A DNA stretch of 33,919 nucleotides from an uncultured Bacilli bacterium (GTDB lineage: Bacteria > Bacillota_I > Bacilli_A > RF39 > UBA660): the NCBI GenBank assembly GCA_944358415.1, contig CALVRA010000001.1:1-33919 (forward strand), written 5' to 3'. Every line of letters begins with the position of its first letter. Position 1 is the stretch's first letter. A program made the translations under genes and the position numbers. Of the stretch, positions 22,534 through 28,883 are shown piece after piece. The notes beneath the pieces are model-generated. The model did not search any database. It was not told the DNA's origin and was given only the letters and a program-made list of their open reading frames with translations.

Positions 22534-22558
22534 AATGAGGTTTTTAGTCCTCATTTTT
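22532..22558. terminator. Shared terminator of the amidoligase gene and metK
   Basis: AAAATGAGG (22532-22540) pairs with CCTCATTTT (22549-22557) around eight bases, with T-runs on both strands. The stop codons of both convergent genes lie within its edges. Confidence 0.88.
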
Positions 22559-23579
22559 AGTTTGTGAAATGGCCAAATTTAGCTTTTTCTTCATATATTG
22601 TTTGATATAGATGTAAGTCTTTGATGATGTTTTTTGGAGTGCATTCATTATATAACTTGGATGATGGTTCAATGTTTCCTTTATCGCTATTTATATATAT
22701 GGCCAAGGGTTTATCTAGACCAATAGCATAGCTTATTTGAATTTGGCACCATTTTAGGTTATGTTTTTTTAAATATTCTTTGGCAATCTCTCTAGCTTTA
22801 TATGCGCCAGATCTATCTACTTTAGATGGATCTTTTCCACTGAAAGCTCCTCCACCTACTTTAGCAAATGAGTGGTAACTATCAATAACAATTTTTCTTC
22901 CGGTTAAGCCAGCATCGCCATCAAAGCCACCAATTAAAAATTTACCGGTTGGATTAATTAGAAAATTTTCTATTTCGATGTTATAGTTTTGACATAGTTC
23001 TAGGCATTTTTCTTTAATTAAGTTATCGGTATAATCTCTATGCTTTTCATCATTTTGATAGGATACAGTAAAATATTTTATTTTTTGTAATCTCATATTT
23101 TCATCATAGTATCCAGTGATTTGAGCTTTTCCATCTGGAAGTAGATATGAACATTCTTTTCTTTTTTTATCATACCATTTACTTAATTTTTGAAGTATTA
23201 CTTGAGCAAGTGGAAGCATTTCTTTGGTTTCGTTTGTGGCATAGCCAAACATCATACCTTGATCACCGGCTCCACCGATTTCATCGTTTGTTCCAAGGGC
23301 AATATCCTCACTTTGTTTACCTAAGTTATTTATTATTTGATAATTTGTGTGGTAACCAATATCTTTTAAAACACGTTTTGTAATTTTTTCTATATTTATA
23401 TTAGCTTTGGATGTAACTTCTCCTGTGATAAAAATTTTTCCTTTACCGCCCATTACTTCGATGCCACATCTTGAATGTTTATCTTCTTTTAGGTAAGCAT
23501 CTAAAAGGGCATCACTGATTTGGTCACAGACTTTATCTGGATGACCACGAAATACTATTTCATTTGAATATAGTTTCAT
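22557..23579 (-). CDS. metK: S-adenosylmethionine synthetase
   Basis: MetK makes S-adenosylmethionine from methionine and ATP, feeding methylation and radical-SAM enzymes. Signatures: GHPDK (12-16), the GAGDQGMMFGYA loop (about 103-114) that closes over the active site, GGFDGDAGLTGRKI, and GGGAFSGKDPSKVDRSGAY with the phosphate-binding residues. At 340 residues it is shorter than the usual 380-400. It ends at KFGHFTN, where typical enzymes continue beyond GHFG by a tail of tens of residues, and internal loops are trimmed as well. All visible catalytic motifs are intact, so it should be active. AGGAGG precedes the ATG. A SAM-I riboswitch controls it, giving feedback by its own product. Confidence 0.95.
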   Translation of the reverse strand: MKLYSNEIVFRGHPDKVCDQISDALLDAYLKEDKHSRCGIEVMGGKGKIFITGEVTSKANINIEKITKRVLKDIGYHTNYQIINNLGKQSEDIALGTNDEIGGAGDQGMMFGYATNETKEMLPLAQVILQKLSKWYDKKRKECSYLLPDGKAQITGYYDENMRLQKIKYFTVSYQNDEKHRDYTDNLIKEKCLELCQNYNIEIENFLINPTGKFLIGGFDGDAGLTGRKIVIDSYHSFAKVGGGAFSGKDPSKVDRSGAYKAREIAKEYLKKHNLKWCQIQISYAIGLDKPLAIYINSDKGNIEPSSKLYNECTPKNIIKDLHLYQTIYEEKAKFGHFTN

Positions 23580-23765: not shown

Positions 23766-24200
23766 TTAGAAAAAATCATCAAAGTCCATGTTATCAAAGG
23801 CTGTCAATTCTTCTAACCAATCTTCCATATTTTCTTTAATAGATAGACATAAATCATCATAAGTATCTTTATCTATGTGATTTAATTCATACATACATTT
23901 ATAAAATTTTTTTATGCTTGTGGCATTTTCTTTAATTGATGTTATACTGGCCCATAAGCATTTATGAATAAACCAATCACCTAGGAATAAGTCTATTTCT
24001 TTGGCACCATCTTCCATTTTGATGACGTCAAAATAGTTTAAATAGGTATTTAAGTAAAATTTAATATTATTTAAATGCTTATTTATGGTTTTTTGTGAAA
24101 GTTTTTGTTTGTTCATTTCGTTTTTAAATTCTTTTAAAAATCTTTCATTTCTTTTAATGTTTTTTTGAACATTTTTTTCATATTTTTCATAATCATCCAT
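23766..24200 (-). CDS. Recombinase core-binding-like (SAM-like) protein without a catalytic domain
   Basis: The protein is all-helical. The segment from about residue 34 (LSQKTINKHLNNIKFYLNTY) to about 108 (TSIKENATSIKKFYKCM) resembles the N-terminal core-binding domain of tyrosine recombinases. No Arg-His-Arg-Tyr catalytic domain follows; the C-terminus is an acidic tail (NMDFDDFF). At 144 residues it is a stand-alone domain. It is the last gene of a four-gene operon and overlaps the DUF6429 gene by eight bases. It could be a DNA-binding accessory protein. The family match is from pattern recognition only. Confidence 0.65.
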   Translation of the reverse strand: MDDYEKYEKNVQKNIKRNERFLKEFKNEMNKQKLSQKTINKHLNNIKFYLNTYLNYFDVIKMEDGAKEIDLFLGDWFIHKCLWASITSIKENATSIKKFYKCMYELNHIDKDTYDDLCLSIKENMEDWLEELTAFDNMDFDDFF

Positions 24201-24465
24201 GTTTTTCTCCTTTTAAATATTTTTCTACTAGTTTTTGAGCTTTTTGTATACCTTTTTCTGATAGAGTAAGAGTTTTTCCTCTTTTTCTTTGATATATATA
24301 GTCTTTTTCTTCTAACAAGTTTAGTATATCAAAGTGATAACCTTTCCAGTTGTTTTTTATTTTTGTTTTTTGTAGGTGATTATTTTGATCATATTTATAT
24401 CCATCTTCTTCCCATGCAGTTAGATATAGAAGAAGGATGGTTAGTTCTTCTATGTTTTTGTCCAT
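24193..24465 (-). CDS. DUF6429 family protein
   Basis: The sequence fits DUF6429: ELTILLLYLTAWEEDGY at the N-terminus, WKGYHFDILNLLEEKDYI in the middle, and LTLSEKGIQKAQKLVEKYL at the end. The C-terminal half looks like a small winged-helix domain of the kind that binds DNA, but no function is established. It is 90 residues. Its TGA stop (24193-24195) is read as stop, and it overlaps the next ATG (ATGGATGA). It lies ten bases after the 514-residue gene, in the HNH operon. Confidence 0.8.
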   Translation of the reverse strand: MDKNIEELTILLLYLTAWEEDGYKYDQNNHLQKTKIKNNWKGYHFDILNLLEEKDYIYQRKRGKTLTLSEKGIQKAQKLVEKYLKGEKHG

Positions 24466-24475
24466 TTTTACCTCC

Positions 24476-26020
24476 TTATAAGTGATAGTATTTCATTAGT
24501 TCATTATATTGTTTATCAGCCAAGTTTGAAAATTCTGGTCCAAATGATATGTTTACTGTTTGAATTAATCCATCGTAAATTAGATTTTCTTTAAATGGAA
24601 TGATGGTAGTTGTAACAAATGTTGGAAATTTACTATATGAAATTACTTTGTCAATGTTATCATATAATCCTTTGACCATATATGTTTTATCGTTAGTCAT
24701 TAATGGGGTATATTCTTTTTCAAAGCGGTCTATGATAAAATTAGTTCTTATGCCCTTTTTAAATTCTAAAACAAGTTTTATTTCATCTTGATTAAATTTA
24801 TAAGGATTGTCTTTAGTGAATTGATCAATAATGGTATCTTTATTTTCCCAGAGTTTTTCGATAATTTGACTCATGACTTTGGTGTTTTTACCTTTTTGCT
24901 TTATAACGTTATATTTTGAATCTATTTGATATTTTTTATTTGTATAATTTAATAATGAAAAATATAGTTTATAAAATAATTTTGCATCTTTTAGATTAAT
25001 ATGAGCATTTGTTTGTCTAACATATCTTTTTTGTTTTTTTATTTCATTTTGCAATTGAATTTTTTTATATTCTTTAAGTTCATTTGGAGTTAGACCATTT
25101 AATGCACCTGATGGCATTTCATCCATGGCTTTATCCATTAATTTAAAGAAATTTGTGAGGTCAATATTTTTTAAGGCTGGAATATCTGTAATTGCATTTT
25201 TTAGAGATTTTCTATCTAAATTTAACAAGGCATATTCATTGATAGGTTCAATAGCTGAGAAAGAGAAGAATGGTAGTTTATATAATTCGTCATGAAATTT
25301 TTTTATGGTTTTATTATTCAAATTAAATTCATTATAAAAATTTGATATATAGTCTTTTGGGGTTAATTTTGGGAAAGCTCCGACACCTTGCTTTTGTCTA
25401 GCTTTGGCTAGTTCATCTTTTAGGTGGTAGTAATCATTGAATATTAGCATTTCTACATATTGATTTAATGATTCAATATATTCTGGTTCAATGGTAACAT
25501 AATATTTAAATACTCTATCATTATGTATATGATTATATATTGTTTCATTTGTTTCTTGTAAAAGTGTAGGAAAAAGTTCAATGACTGGTGGCACGAGAAA
25601 TGTTCCTTGAATTTTACAAAAGCTAACTAGAATTTCATTAATTTTTGTTTTATGTTTAACTTCTAGCCATTTTACCATGGGGAGAGCTTTTTTGATGTTT
25701 TCTAAGGCTTCTTCATATATTTCTATATCATTGGTTATTTCATAGTTAATTAAGAATTTCTTATGTAATGTTGTTCTTTCCCAGTCGTATTTGTTTTCTA
25801 GATATTCTTTATCGTTATTTAAATACATTTGAAGATATTTTAATTCTCTAAATGTACATATATCAATGATGTTTTGAGGATTTTCATATACTTTATATAT
25901 TTCTTTTATCATTTGCTTTTTGGTTATTTTTTCATAGTCTTTAAAGTTTTCTACTACTCTTGTATATATATCAAATACAAATTCTTTGCGGTAGTGATTA
26001 ATTTCTTCAAATATTTTCAT
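24476..26020 (-). CDS. Large hypothetical protein in the HNH operon
   Basis: I do not know this 514-residue protein's function. It is soluble and mostly helical, with no signal peptide or metal cluster. The last 130 or so residues look like a separate domain: FTKDNPYKFNQDEIKLVLEF, then strand-rich segments around TYMVKGLYDNIDKVIS, and TTTIIPFKENLIYDGLIQTV. I recall similar C-terminal regions in uncharacterised gut Bacillota proteins, sometimes with SEC-C/YecA-type neighbours; this is a weak recollection. A helical hinge near residues 315-345 (LNGLTPNELKEYKKIQLQN in part) separates it from the N-terminal part. It starts three bases after the HNH gene ends and is followed ten bases later by DUF6429, so the products probably act together. 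Confidence 0.75.
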   Translation of the reverse strand: MKIFEEINHYRKEFVFDIYTRVVENFKDYEKITKKQMIKEIYKVYENPQNIIDICTFRELKYLQMYLNNDKEYLENKYDWERTTLHKKFLINYEITNDIEIYEEALENIKKALPMVKWLEVKHKTKINEILVSFCKIQGTFLVPPVIELFPTLLQETNETIYNHIHNDRVFKYYVTIEPEYIESLNQYVEMLIFNDYYHLKDELAKARQKQGVGAFPKLTPKDYISNFYNEFNLNNKTIKKFHDELYKLPFFSFSAIEPINEYALLNLDRKSLKNAITDIPALKNIDLTNFFKLMDKAMDEMPSGALNGLTPNELKEYKKIQLQNEIKKQKRYVRQTNAHINLKDAKLFYKLYFSLLNYTNKKYQIDSKYNVIKQKGKNTKVMSQIIEKLWENKDTIIDQFTKDNPYKFNQDEIKLVLEFKKGIRTNFIIDRFEKEYTPLMTNDKTYMVKGLYDNIDKVISYSKFPTFVTTTIIPFKENLIYDGLIQTVNISFGPEFSNLADKQYNELMKYYHL

Positions 26021-26023
26021 ATT

Positions 26024-26977
26024 TTACTCCTTTTCATTAAATATTTTGTCTAATCTTACTCTATCATACATGTCATACAAGTATTGAATATCGTCTATTT
26101 CGATTCCACATTCTTTTAAGTTTTCTTTTCTTTGATTATATAATTTATCAATTAGCTCTTTATAATTTATGCCGTGGTGTATTTCATCATGACACAAACT
26201 ACAAAGTGAAACGATGTTTGCTTCAATATCTAAACTATATGGAAATAGATATTCAAATTCTAAGGGGATTAAATGGTGTCCCAAAATATATGGTTTACCA
26301 TTTGATTTATTTATAAAAGTTTGATGATTTGGATTTAGTTCACATTTATAGTTAGCTTTTTCTAAGGCTCTTTTTTTGACTAAGGCATCTCTTGATGTTT
26401 GTTTTAATGTTTGTTTGGTTTTAGTGTTTGTTTTCTTTTTAGGTTTATAGATTATTTTATTAGATGAAGAATTTTCTTTTTTTATATCTTGCATAATCAT
26501 TTCATTTTCTTTATATTTTAAATAATTTGTTTCAAGAGCAAATATTATTTTTTTTAGTTTTTCTAGTCTATAGCCAACATCTATTTTTCTTGTTTTTATT
26601 TCTAATTTAGGATTTAAATGATTCCAATCAATATCGTTTGTTTTTCTTTCAAAAAATTCTTTTTTTCCATTTAGTTGGCCAAGTGAACTTGCAATTGTTG
26701 GAATCATATCAATATAATATTTTAACATTTCTGGATAGTTATCTTGGATATAGTCATATAAAACTATTAAGTTTCTTATAAGATTTTCAAGGTTAAAATT
26801 AGTAAAGTTTTTTTCTTTTCGAAATTTATTTATTTGCTTTTGATTTAGATTAAATTCCTCTTTTAAAGCGTTATTAATAAAGCGTCCTTCGGAAAGTTTG
26901 AATAGATCTTCAATCTCTAATTGATTTATGGTGATTTCTTTATTTTTTATTTTTTCTTTTAATGTTTCTAACTGCAT
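26024..26977 (-). CDS. HNH-type nuclease
   Basis: The C-terminal region (about 190-265) has an HNH zinc-nuclease pattern: CELNPNHQTF, then LGHHLIPL with the histidine pair at 234-235, then NIVSLCSLCHDEIHHG with two cysteines and the final HNH histidines. Such domains cut DNA using one divalent metal. The N-terminal two thirds is helical and unassigned, with a basic Lys/Thr linker (KPKKKTNTKTKQTLKQT) before the nuclease. I start at the ATG at 26977, which follows AAAGGAG; an upstream ATG would add 30 residues that overlap the promoter. The protein is then 317 residues and is the first gene of a tightly packed four-gene operon. Defence is possible, but no known system matches. Confidence 0.85.
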   Translation of the reverse strand: MQLETLKEKIKNKEITINQLEIEDLFKLSEGRFINNALKEEFNLNQKQINKFRKEKNFTNFNLENLIRNLIVLYDYIQDNYPEMLKYYIDMIPTIASSLGQLNGKKEFFERKTNDIDWNHLNPKLEIKTRKIDVGYRLEKLKKIIFALETNYLKYKENEMIMQDIKKENSSSNKIIYKPKKKTNTKTKQTLKQTSRDALVKKRALEKANYKCELNPNHQTFINKSNGKPYILGHHLIPLEFEYLFPYSLDIEANIVSLCSLCHDEIHHGINYKELIDKLYNQRKENLKECGIEIDDIQYLYDMYDRVRLDKIFNEKE

Positions 26978-27058: not shown

Positions 27059-27089
27059 AAAAACCAAACTTTATAATGGTTTGGTTTTT
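27059..27089 (-). terminator. Terminator at the end of the hydrolase gene
   Basis: An 11-base perfect stem (AAACCAAAC with GTTTGGTTT, plus two A-T pairs) has a nine-base loop holding the stop codon, and ends in five T on the minus strand. Confidence 0.7.
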
Positions 27090-28099
27090 GTTTTTACTGG
27101 TTTTTTATTTGATTCGATGAACCAATAGGCATCTAATACTGATGGAAATATGGCATCATATAAGCAGTGTACTCCTTTATTTTCGGCATAATATATTTCA
27201 CTTAGATTATTAGCTATTCTATAGTTTTCTAGCTGTTTAAAGATTTGAGTTTGCATTTTTTGAGGAACTAGGACATCGTTTTGTCCTTGAATACAAAATA
27301 TAGGAATATCTAAAGAGGCAATGTTAGTTAAGAAGTTTTTAGAAAATTCTTTGACTTCTTTTAATGTTGATGGTCCCTCAACGGCATTGCCTAATCTAAA
27401 TTGTTTTCCGTTTTCCACAGCATTTTTCTTATTTATTAAAAATTCTGCTTCTTTTGGAGGATTAATAAATGAATATTCAAAGGTATAAAGTGGGGAAAAT
27501 AAGGTTAAGGAATTTGCTTTTTCTTTGTTTTCTTTTAAATATAGACCTAGGACAACGGTACCCATACATGTTCCTACGTAGTCAATTGTGTGAAATTCTT
27601 TTTTGATTTTTTTTGGTAATTTTTTCATGACTTCTTCTAAGTCATCTTTCATTTTAATAAAAGATAAATCTTGAATTGGAGGTCTATTTACTATATCTTT
27701 TATTTTAGGATATTTATTTATTAATTTATTTAGGGTTTGTTTATCTTTAGCTAACTCGGCTTTAATTATTATGTTTATATCTTTATTAGGAACATCTAAT
27801 GAATTTAATGTTTTGCTTAATGCATATATATCAATATTTTTTCCACTTTCTCCATGGTTTCTTTGGTCAATTCTTAAAATAGCGTAATCATGTTTTAAGA
27901 GATTTGTTAGATAATCATAGTTACCCAAGGGATTAAAATATATCTTTTGTTGATTTTTTATTTCTTTGATACCTCTTTCGTGTCTATCATATCCACCACT
28001 ATGAAGCATGACTATTAGGTTATCTGAGTCTATATTTCCTTCTATTTGTCCTTTAATTATTAAGCCATCTGACATTTCAAATTCTAATTTTTTATACAT
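27071..28099 (-). CDS. Alpha/beta hydrolase with a cysteine at the nucleophile position
   Basis: The fold is visible from the opening strands (LIVMLHSGGYDRHERG, the oxyanion region) and AILRIDQRNHGESG. The nucleophile elbow is GTCMGT, so the nucleophile is Cys178 rather than serine. The acid is Asp275 (IQGQNDVLVP) and the base His311 (NKGVHCLYD). A Cys-Asp-His triad is known in dienelactone hydrolases; most members of this superfamily use serine. A long insert (about 100-165) forms the cap. There is no signal peptide. At 342 residues it is larger than minimal hydrolases. Its ATG overlaps the end of the SWIM gene by eight bases. The substrate is unknown. Confidence 0.85.
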   Translation of the reverse strand: MYKKLEFEMSDGLIIKGQIEGNIDSDNLIVMLHSGGYDRHERGIKEIKNQQKIYFNPLGNYDYLTNLLKHDYAILRIDQRNHGESGKNIDIYALSKTLNSLDVPNKDINIIIKAELAKDKQTLNKLINKYPKIKDIVNRPPIQDLSFIKMKDDLEEVMKKLPKKIKKEFHTIDYVGTCMGTVVLGLYLKENKEKANSLTLFSPLYTFEYSFINPPKEAEFLINKKNAVENGKQFRLGNAVEGPSTLKEVKEFSKNFLTNIASLDIPIFCIQGQNDVLVPQKMQTQIFKQLENYRIANNLSEIYYAENKGVHCLYDAIFPSVLDAYWFIESNKKPVKTKTKPL

Positions 28100-28883
28100 T
28101 TAGTATTTCTCCTATCATATTTTCTAAGCATAAACTTTCAAAATAATTATTTTGTTTAATGTAGTTAAGCCATGATGTTATAGCATTTTTAATTGTTTGA
28201 TTTGATTTTTTATAAGTTATTTTTAGAATAAGATTTAACCAGTAATAAATATTGATTAGTTTATTATTATCTAGATTATCAGTATCTTTTAGGGCATTAA
28301 TAATGGCTTTAATTATTATAAATGAATTTGAATAATTTTTATTCTTTATTTTTATTTTTAAATCATTAATAAAGTCATCTAATGTTTCTAAATAATTATC
28401 ATCTAAAGTAAGACTATTATAAAGATTATTAAAGTAGTAGTTATAGGGCTGTGATGGCATATATTTGATGAAATGTTGTTCAAACTCTGTTTTATTGAAA
28501 TATGGCTCTTTTAAAAGATATTGTTTTAATTCCTCGGCTGGTATTTGACTGATAGTTTTTCTTATGCTTTGGGTTTTCTTTGGAATTTTTCTTTTTAGAG
28601 TTATATTTTTATAATTGTTAGTAAATATAGATAGGATGGTGGCAAATTCATGTTTACAATTAAAGTCACATGGGCAGGTGCATGACATTATTAAATCATT
28701 TCTGAAAAATTCTATTTTAACTTTATATTCAAATGTACCTTTTACTTTGGCAAAGTATGTGTTTTTATTTCTTAAGCAGGAAATGACATTACCTTTTTCA
28801 AAATAATCTAAGCCTCTTTGTTTAATTGTTTCGTTAAATTCATAGTGGGTTAGGTCATCTATTTGTTTTAATTTAAGGTTCAT
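28092..28883 (-). CDS. Stand-alone SWIM zinc-finger protein
   Basis: The N-terminal 80 residues are a SWIM domain: RGLDYFEKGNV and MSCTCPCDFNCKHEF, with ligands C68, C70, C76 and H78 (CxC-x5-CxH). SWIM fingers bind DNA or protein. The rest (about 95-263) is helical and unassigned, rich in Asn, Ile and Leu. The large helicase at 30577-33726 begins with a related SWIM finger, so the two could share a target. AAAGGA lies before the ATG. It is the first gene of a two-gene unit with the hydrolase. No catalytic domain is seen. Confidence 0.85.
   Translation of the reverse strand: MNLKLKQIDDLTHYEFNETIKQRGLDYFEKGNVISCLRNKNTYFAKVKGTFEYKVKIEFFRNDLIMSCTCPCDFNCKHEFATILSIFTNNYKNITLKRKIPKKTQSIRKTISQIPAEELKQYLLKEPYFNKTEFEQHFIKYMPSQPYNYYFNNLYNSLTLDDNYLETLDDFINDLKIKIKNKNYSNSFIIIKAIINALKDTDNLDNNKLINIYYWLNLILKITYKKSNQTIKNAITSWLNYIKQNNYFESLCLENMIGEILNV

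Follow-up and report, generated by a model that had tools for sequence, protein, structure and literature searches.

The question addressed here is whether four tightly packed genes in an uncultured Bacilli bacterium constitute a single DNA-targeting system or an assembly of separable parts. The genes lie in contig CALVRA010000001.1 of GenBank assembly GCA_944358415.1 (positions 1 to 33,919; this whole stretch of 33,919 nucleotides (nt) is referred to as the window) and encode an HNH nuclease, a 514-residue protein (P514), a DUF6429 protein, and a protein resembling the N-terminal part of recombinases (RecN). An initial annotation had described them as one operon acting as a unit. Our reading, favored tentatively and at somewhat less than even chances, is that the locus is a mosaic accessory operon, comprising a recurring core of P514, RecN, and DUF6429 (hereafter the trio) that acts on mobile DNA, and a separate HNH nuclease. 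The four genes are as follows, with lengths in amino acids (aa).

26024-26977, minus strand: HNH gene, 317 aa, with a C-terminal McrA-like HNH domain
24476-26020, minus strand: P514, 514 aa, placed in a SEC-C-less branch of the SEC-C protein family
24193-24465, minus strand: DUF6429 protein, 90 aa (Pfam 67.3 bits, cut-off 31.6)
23766-24200, minus strand: RecN, 144 aa, a stand-alone SAM-like N domain of the tyrosine-recombinase type

Co-occurrence and Arrangement of the Four Genes

All four open reading frames (ORFs) are preceded by an AGGAG-type site; the HNH and P514 genes are separated by 3 nt, the P514 and DUF6429 genes by 10 nt, and the DUF6429 and RecN genes overlap by 8 nt. Coordinates, strand, lengths, gaps, and overlap were thus correctly given in the initial annotation. 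Co-occurrence was assessed in 291 genomes of the host's family, with P values that ignore the relatedness of the genomes. P514 was present in 31 genomes, RecN in 20, and DUF6429 over its cut-off in 15; DUF6429 matches in 34 of the 49 genomes fell below it, being short for the most part and lying inside long frames, and were excluded from the count. P514 and RecN were common to 10 genomes against 2.1 expected (P 3.9e-6), P514 and DUF6429 to 6 against 1.6 (P 0.0023), and RecN and DUF6429 to 6 against 1.0 (P 1.6e-4); when the window's own genome is left aside, the three pairs are found in 9, 5, and 5 genomes, respectively. By contrast, relatives of the HNH protein occur in 12 genomes and coincide with P514 in the window's own genome only (1.3 expected), and the HNH homologues found elsewhere do not adjoin P514, RecN, or DUF6429. 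A fixed four-gene unit is therefore rejected because the HNH gene does not follow the trio across genomes. Of the initial reading, the tight packing of the genes is supported, as is a set that recurs above chance, namely the trio; a four-gene unit is not supported, and the HNH gene is better considered apart from the trio.

Furthermore, the core is optional because 21 of the 31 genomes with P514 have no RecN and 25 have no DUF6429. RecN adjoins P514 at 6 of the 22 places at which it occurs in the host's family. A scan of GTDB contigs for P514 yielded 73 loci, nearly all in uncultured Bacilli; the named hosts include Traorella massiliensis and Longicatena caecimuris. When these loci and the window (74 sequences) were taken together, all 10 RecN matches and 9 of the 10 DUF6429 matches adjoined P514 or lay within the trio, in differing gene orders; the tenth DUF6429 match follows the fusion gene described below. 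On a P514 tree of 67 rows, from which one locus (L121) and the rows outside 440-620 aa were excluded, adjacency to RecN requires 5 changes as compared with 8.6 when labels are shuffled, and adjacency to DUF6429 requires 4. A P514 profile matched 25 of 395 genomes sampled from the class. P514 is found in 23 of 150 genera.

The nearest relative, in genome G636 (locus L062), carries the same region at 98% identity and differs from the window in the parts that it has retained. P514 and RecN are intact. The DUF6429 gene has been cleanly lost by a deletion of ~265 bp, the ends of which lie where the ribosome sites and starts of DUF6429 and RecN resemble each other in sequence; a 7-nt deletion and an internal stop disrupt the HNH gene. 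Between the two copies of P514, there are 20 synonymous and 10 non-synonymous changes (dN/dS 0.11), a sequence comparison that indicates purifying selection on P514. A few kb upstream of the operon (L288:1387-4174), G636 encodes a C5 DNA methyltransferase (212 bits) adjoining a MutH/Sau3AI-type protein; no C5 methyltransferase above the cut-off was found in the window's genome, the assembly of which is 76% complete. In this one genome pair, a broken HNH gene together with a C5 methyltransferase is what one would expect if the HNH protein attacks DNA containing 5-methylcytosine.

P514, RecN, and DUF6429

As the initial annotation had supposed, P514 stands outside known families: no significant match was obtained in Pfam, NCBIfam, PADLOC, or PHROGs, the only one there being to NCBIfam at E 0.13, and among PDB sequences there was none by phmmer and one chance-level profile match (E 0.13). 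Its sequence places P514 in a SEC-C-less branch of the SEC-C protein family of Firmicutes. The Cys-rich SEC-C motif is absent from P514 in the alignment and from the 75 closer relatives scanned; distant relatives carry it in the linker, at a place where it is missing from P514. At one locus (L264, the same place as L315), a GNAT acetyltransferase domain is fused to a SEC-C relative of P514. Two regions of P514 stand out in the AlphaFold model, which has a predicted local distance difference test (pLDDT) score of 92.9.

25316-25669, minus strand: P514 winged-helix-like region, residues 118-235 (best VIA Z 7.4, rows nearly all winged helix)
24476-25015, minus strand: P514 C-terminal domain, residues 336-514, helical and OB-like, found also as an IS66 passenger and in a PRiA4_ORF3 fusion

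The C-terminal domain, modeled alone with a pLDDT of 93.4, resembles OB folds, RecO first (VIA Z 7.1, root-mean-square deviation 2.9, 85 aligned). The VIA rows for the whole protein cover mainly residues 118-243. In Foldseek searches at E 0.001, whole P514 had no match in PDB or BFVD, and the C-terminal domain alone had none. Judged by the model, P514 looks like a winged-helix and OB-fold protein that probably binds DNA.

The window copy of RecN scores below the cut-off of the phage-integrase SAM-like N-terminal family (Pfam Phage_int_SAM, 20.2 against 27 bits), and a homologue at another locus (L035) passes that of Pfam SAM-like N (24.5 against 22.3). Full-length copies have 132-144 aa, and the catalytic domain is absent, the protein ending after the N domain in 17 of 17 aligned copies. 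From its sequence, RecN looks DNA-binding; the DUF6429 protein appears winged-helix-like by eye. The DNA-binding part of the initial proposal is supported in qualified form, with RecN and P514 as the putative binders. The view that no known system is matched was upheld for the trio, as PADLOC gave no significant match for P514, DUF6429, or RecN (best 0.0072, for DUF6429); an open-literature search found no paper on DUF6429.

Fusions and Links to Mobile Elements

In a Clostridia ORF (L133), the P514 C-terminal domain is fused to PRiA4_ORF3 (190 bits), a family with the NCBI name "IS1096 element passenger TnpR," and a DUF6429 gene follows after 3 nt. A second locus of G636 (L287:4345-5289) encodes a RecN domain fused to PRiA4_ORF3, together with a second RecN, a SWIM protein, and a second metK. 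In plasmids of Ruminococcus albus (L299, L300, and L305), a gene for the P514 C-terminal domain alone is present in several copies, some of them split, and overlaps the 3′ terminus of an IS66 transposase gene; in this stand-alone form, the domain is an IS66 passenger. A cyanobacterial plasmid encodes a RecN homologue and, a few kb away, a pRiA4b ORF-3 protein. Haloarchaeal plasmids (L302-L304 and L306) have, in conserved order, a toxin-antitoxin-like UPF0175-PIN pair and, immediately after it, a distantly related homologue of the P514 C-terminal domain. According to PMC3942029, transposons of the ISAzba1 group have a pRiA4_Orf3-like ORF in common, some with a serine or tyrosine recombinase. 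Owing to the IS66 passenger, the PRiA4_ORF3 fusions, and the presence of PRiA4_ORF3 on transposons, the trio is assigned to a mobile-element-linked toolkit (P514, RecN, DUF6429, PRiA4_ORF3, and SWIM), of which it is probably a recurring, optional module of likely DNA-binding proteins.

Searches of viral contigs returned no RecN, no homologue of the HNH protein, and no fusion protein of the P514 C-terminal domain with PRiA4_ORF3; DUF6429 was found in one viral contig, together with a serine-recombinase-like ORF. Phage records contained no HNH homologue at E 1e-10. Among the open-access papers searched, none was found that links SEC-C with pRiA4b ORF-3 or IS66 with a passenger and SEC-C, and the pRiA4b papers listed concern other subjects, mostly the plasmid.

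Genomic Neighborhood of P514

The surroundings (up to 5 kb) of 47 non-redundant P514 loci, 352 kb in all, were compared with control stretches totaling 374 kb in genomes that carry P514. The SWIM family, near P514 at 10 of the 47 loci, was counted 10 times versus 0 in the controls, PRiA4-type proteins 10 versus 0, AAA/DUF4143 10 versus 1, RecN, DUF6429, and UPF0158 5 versus 0 each, and HipA-type proteins 5 versus 1. The PADLOC model PDC-S01 was matched by 9 of 150 neighbor proteins (of 152, two having been removed at random and the HNH protein being taken from its ATG) and was not among the best 25 of 69 families for 137 control proteins (of 146 from 339 ORFs, nine having been excluded, mainly ORFs at stretch edges). 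Individual P514-type loci adjoin AbiE, Abi_2, Cas9, HipA-type, and Fic genes, one locus has a type I restriction-modification set (which we named from its sequence), and the gene order AbiEi-AbiEii-DUF6429 was seen.

The HNH Protein

The recognizable part of the HNH protein is its C-terminal domain.

26135-26425, minus strand: HNH domain, residues 185-281, with GHHLIP at residue 233, ANIVSLC at 253, and CSLCH at 259

This domain aligns to EcoKMcrA in PDB (6ghc, E 4.5e-8) and matches PADLOC mREase_IV (1e-10), and in Pfam it stays below the cut-off. Residues 1-180 have no sequence match in Pfam or PDB, including EcoKMcrA. The protein is probably an independent modification-dependent nuclease of the McrA-like type.

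Possible Function and Alternative Explanations

On the favored reading, the toolkit would travel with mobile elements and collect beside defense-type genes. Nucleic acid would be bound by P514, through its winged helix and OB-like C-terminal domain, and DNA by RecN, a core-binding domain from which the catalytic half has been lost; for the small DUF6429 protein, the role of a partner or regulator is envisaged. Because none of the trio has a recognizable catalytic domain, a joint DNA-recognition or silencing complex on mobile DNA is proposed, which might control the carrier element or interfere with others. The HNH protein would be a separate McrA-like modification-dependent nuclease that is encoded ahead of the trio by happenstance. 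The formation of a complex, the HNH substrate, and the task of the trio, i.e., element control or anti-element defense, are presumed, and sequence does not tell the two tasks apart. In a bolder version, which we regard as rather unlikely, genes that began as transposon passengers would have given rise to an undescribed machine for DNA recognition, made up of P514, RecN, DUF6429, and PRiA4_ORF3, by which foreign mobile DNA is sensed or silenced; RecN, as a recombinase domain devoid of catalysis, would provide site recognition, and P514 would be an OB/winged-helix clamp.

Several points weigh against this mosaic-operon reading. RecN and DUF6429 are missing from most P514 genomes as counted above and are often found with other partners elsewhere; in a family of Clostridia, the gene ahead of DUF6429 encodes a protein of 257-260 aa in 3 of 5 genomes and the fusion of the P514 C-terminal domain with PRiA4_ORF3 in 1. 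P514 has no relatives in viral contigs or phage records, for which reason it was also dismissed as a phage gene, and the IS66 genes of the R. albus locus L299 have no match in the Bacilli P514 loci searched. Both fold matches of P514 (Z 7.4 and 7.1) fall under the clear-match level of the tool, with Foldseek E values above 0.05, so its DNA binding is something that we infer. The enrichment of defense genes derives from profiles partly seeded by the neighbors and from PADLOC candidates rather than proven systems, and the contrast between methyltransferase and HNH gene involves one genome pair, in which one genome is 76% complete.

A single four-gene DNA-targeting defense system, in which the trio guides or licenses the HNH nuclease, would accord with the tight packing in the window, the McrA-like nature of the nuclease, and the defense-type neighbors at other loci; it is nevertheless highly improbable, given that HNH and P514 coincide in 1 of 291 genomes, their own, that HNH homologues elsewhere are not beside the trio, and that the HNH gene is broken in a relative with intact P514 and RecN. 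That unrelated accessory genes came to lie together by chance, the genome being AT-rich and compact, would suit the HNH gene, given that close gene packing is usual in genomes as small as this assembly (1.2 Mb). For P514, RecN, and DUF6429, this explanation is disfavored by the co-occurrence P values and the fusions, and as an account of the locus it has scant probability.

The fusions of PRiA4_ORF3 with the P514 C-terminal domain and RecN, the IS66 passenger, the reported occurrence of PRiA4_ORF3 in transposons (PMC3942029), and the nature of RecN as a recombinase fragment would also be explained by a transposon-derived regulatory set, i.e., IS66/IS1096/ISAzba1-like passengers that controlled transposition or target choice and were left in the chromosome without present use in defense. 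This explanation is unlikely, albeit plausible, since no IS66 transposase was found near the Bacilli P514 loci searched, P514 appears to be under purifying selection, and it persists in many genera (the 23 of 150 mentioned above). Toxin-antitoxin-like accessory genes, with P514 or DUF6429 serving neighboring toxin-antitoxin or Abi genes as an antitoxin or a regulator, are suggested by the AbiEi-AbiEii-DUF6429 order, by the HipA-type, Fic, and Abi_2 neighbors, and by the haloarchaeal homologue that directly follows the UPF0175-PIN pair; however, no toxin is constant across loci and none of the window's four genes is a recognized toxin in Pfam, NCBIfam, or PADLOC, which renders this account improbable.

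The mosaic-operon reading thus links families without an assigned function (DUF6429, PRiA4_ORF3, SEC-C-type, stand-alone recombinase N domains, and SWIM) by co-occurrence, gene order, and two fusions. The P514 domain riding on IS66 and the families linked to it provide a concrete set for the question of the role of transposon passenger proteins, which has been open since PRiA4_ORF3 was seen in transposons.

Flanking Genes

The neighbors of the four genes in the window are as follows.

28092-28883, minus strand: SWIM-type protein, upstream neighbor, the N-terminal part of which is PADLOC candidate PDC-S62
27071-28099, minus strand: alpha/beta hydrolase, upstream neighbor, which also adjoins P514 in L064/L098
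23639-23722, minus strand: S-adenosylmethionine (SAM) riboswitch, 3′ of RecN and ahead of metK, a separate unit
22557-23579, minus strand: metK-like gene, accessory in the genus, a neighbor outside the claimed unit

The SWIM and hydrolase genes overlap by 8 nt and lie 5′ of the HNH gene on the same strand; the operon may extend upstream to both, despite the 93 nt with a hairpin between the hydrolase and HNH genes. A promoter scan of the locus gave no more matches than shuffled sequences. Identity with the G636 locus starts ~20 nt upstream of the SWIM start codon (window 28903), and a recombination boundary probably lies there because the two genomes differ beyond that point. On the other side, metK with its riboswitch is an accessory SAM synthetase: of 10 genomes in the genus, just 3 have a metK match, one at 47% identity, and G636 has two copies, both adjoining P514/RecN/SWIM-type genes. 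As a candidate member of the unit, metK was set aside because its adjacency to P514 is confined to the window, the G636 relative, and the single contig of L048/L110. A putative amidoligase gene (PF12224; 21574-22533, on the opposite strand) adjoins metK. No transposase was detected among nine window proteins scanned in Pfam, NCBIfam, and PADLOC, indicating that the unit is not an intact transposon.

Comparison With Known Systems

The HNH protein shares with EcoKMcrA (PMC7145662) and other HNH modification-dependent enzymes a C-terminal HNH domain, its motif residues, and another domain ahead of it, whereas its N-terminal 180 residues do not match those of EcoKMcrA. SEC-C motif proteins of Firmicutes (PF02810; L251, L255, L256, and L266) can be aligned with the N- and/or C-terminal regions of P514; unlike them, P514 and its close relatives do not have the Cys-rich motif. 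RecN has the N-terminal SAM-like core-binding domain of tyrosine recombinases (Pfam Phage_int_SAM) without their catalytic domain. The PADLOC candidates PDC-S62 (SWIM) and PDC-S01 (AAA/DUF4143) and AbiE are neighbors of P514-type genes and, unlike the parts of the trio, variable ones, the PDC models themselves being candidates. Finally, although the window operon has no PRiA4_ORF3 gene, two genomes encode fusions of PRiA4_ORF3, the transposon protein of the ISAzba1 group, with the P514 C-terminal domain and with RecN, and PRiA4_ORF3 lies near P514 at several loci.

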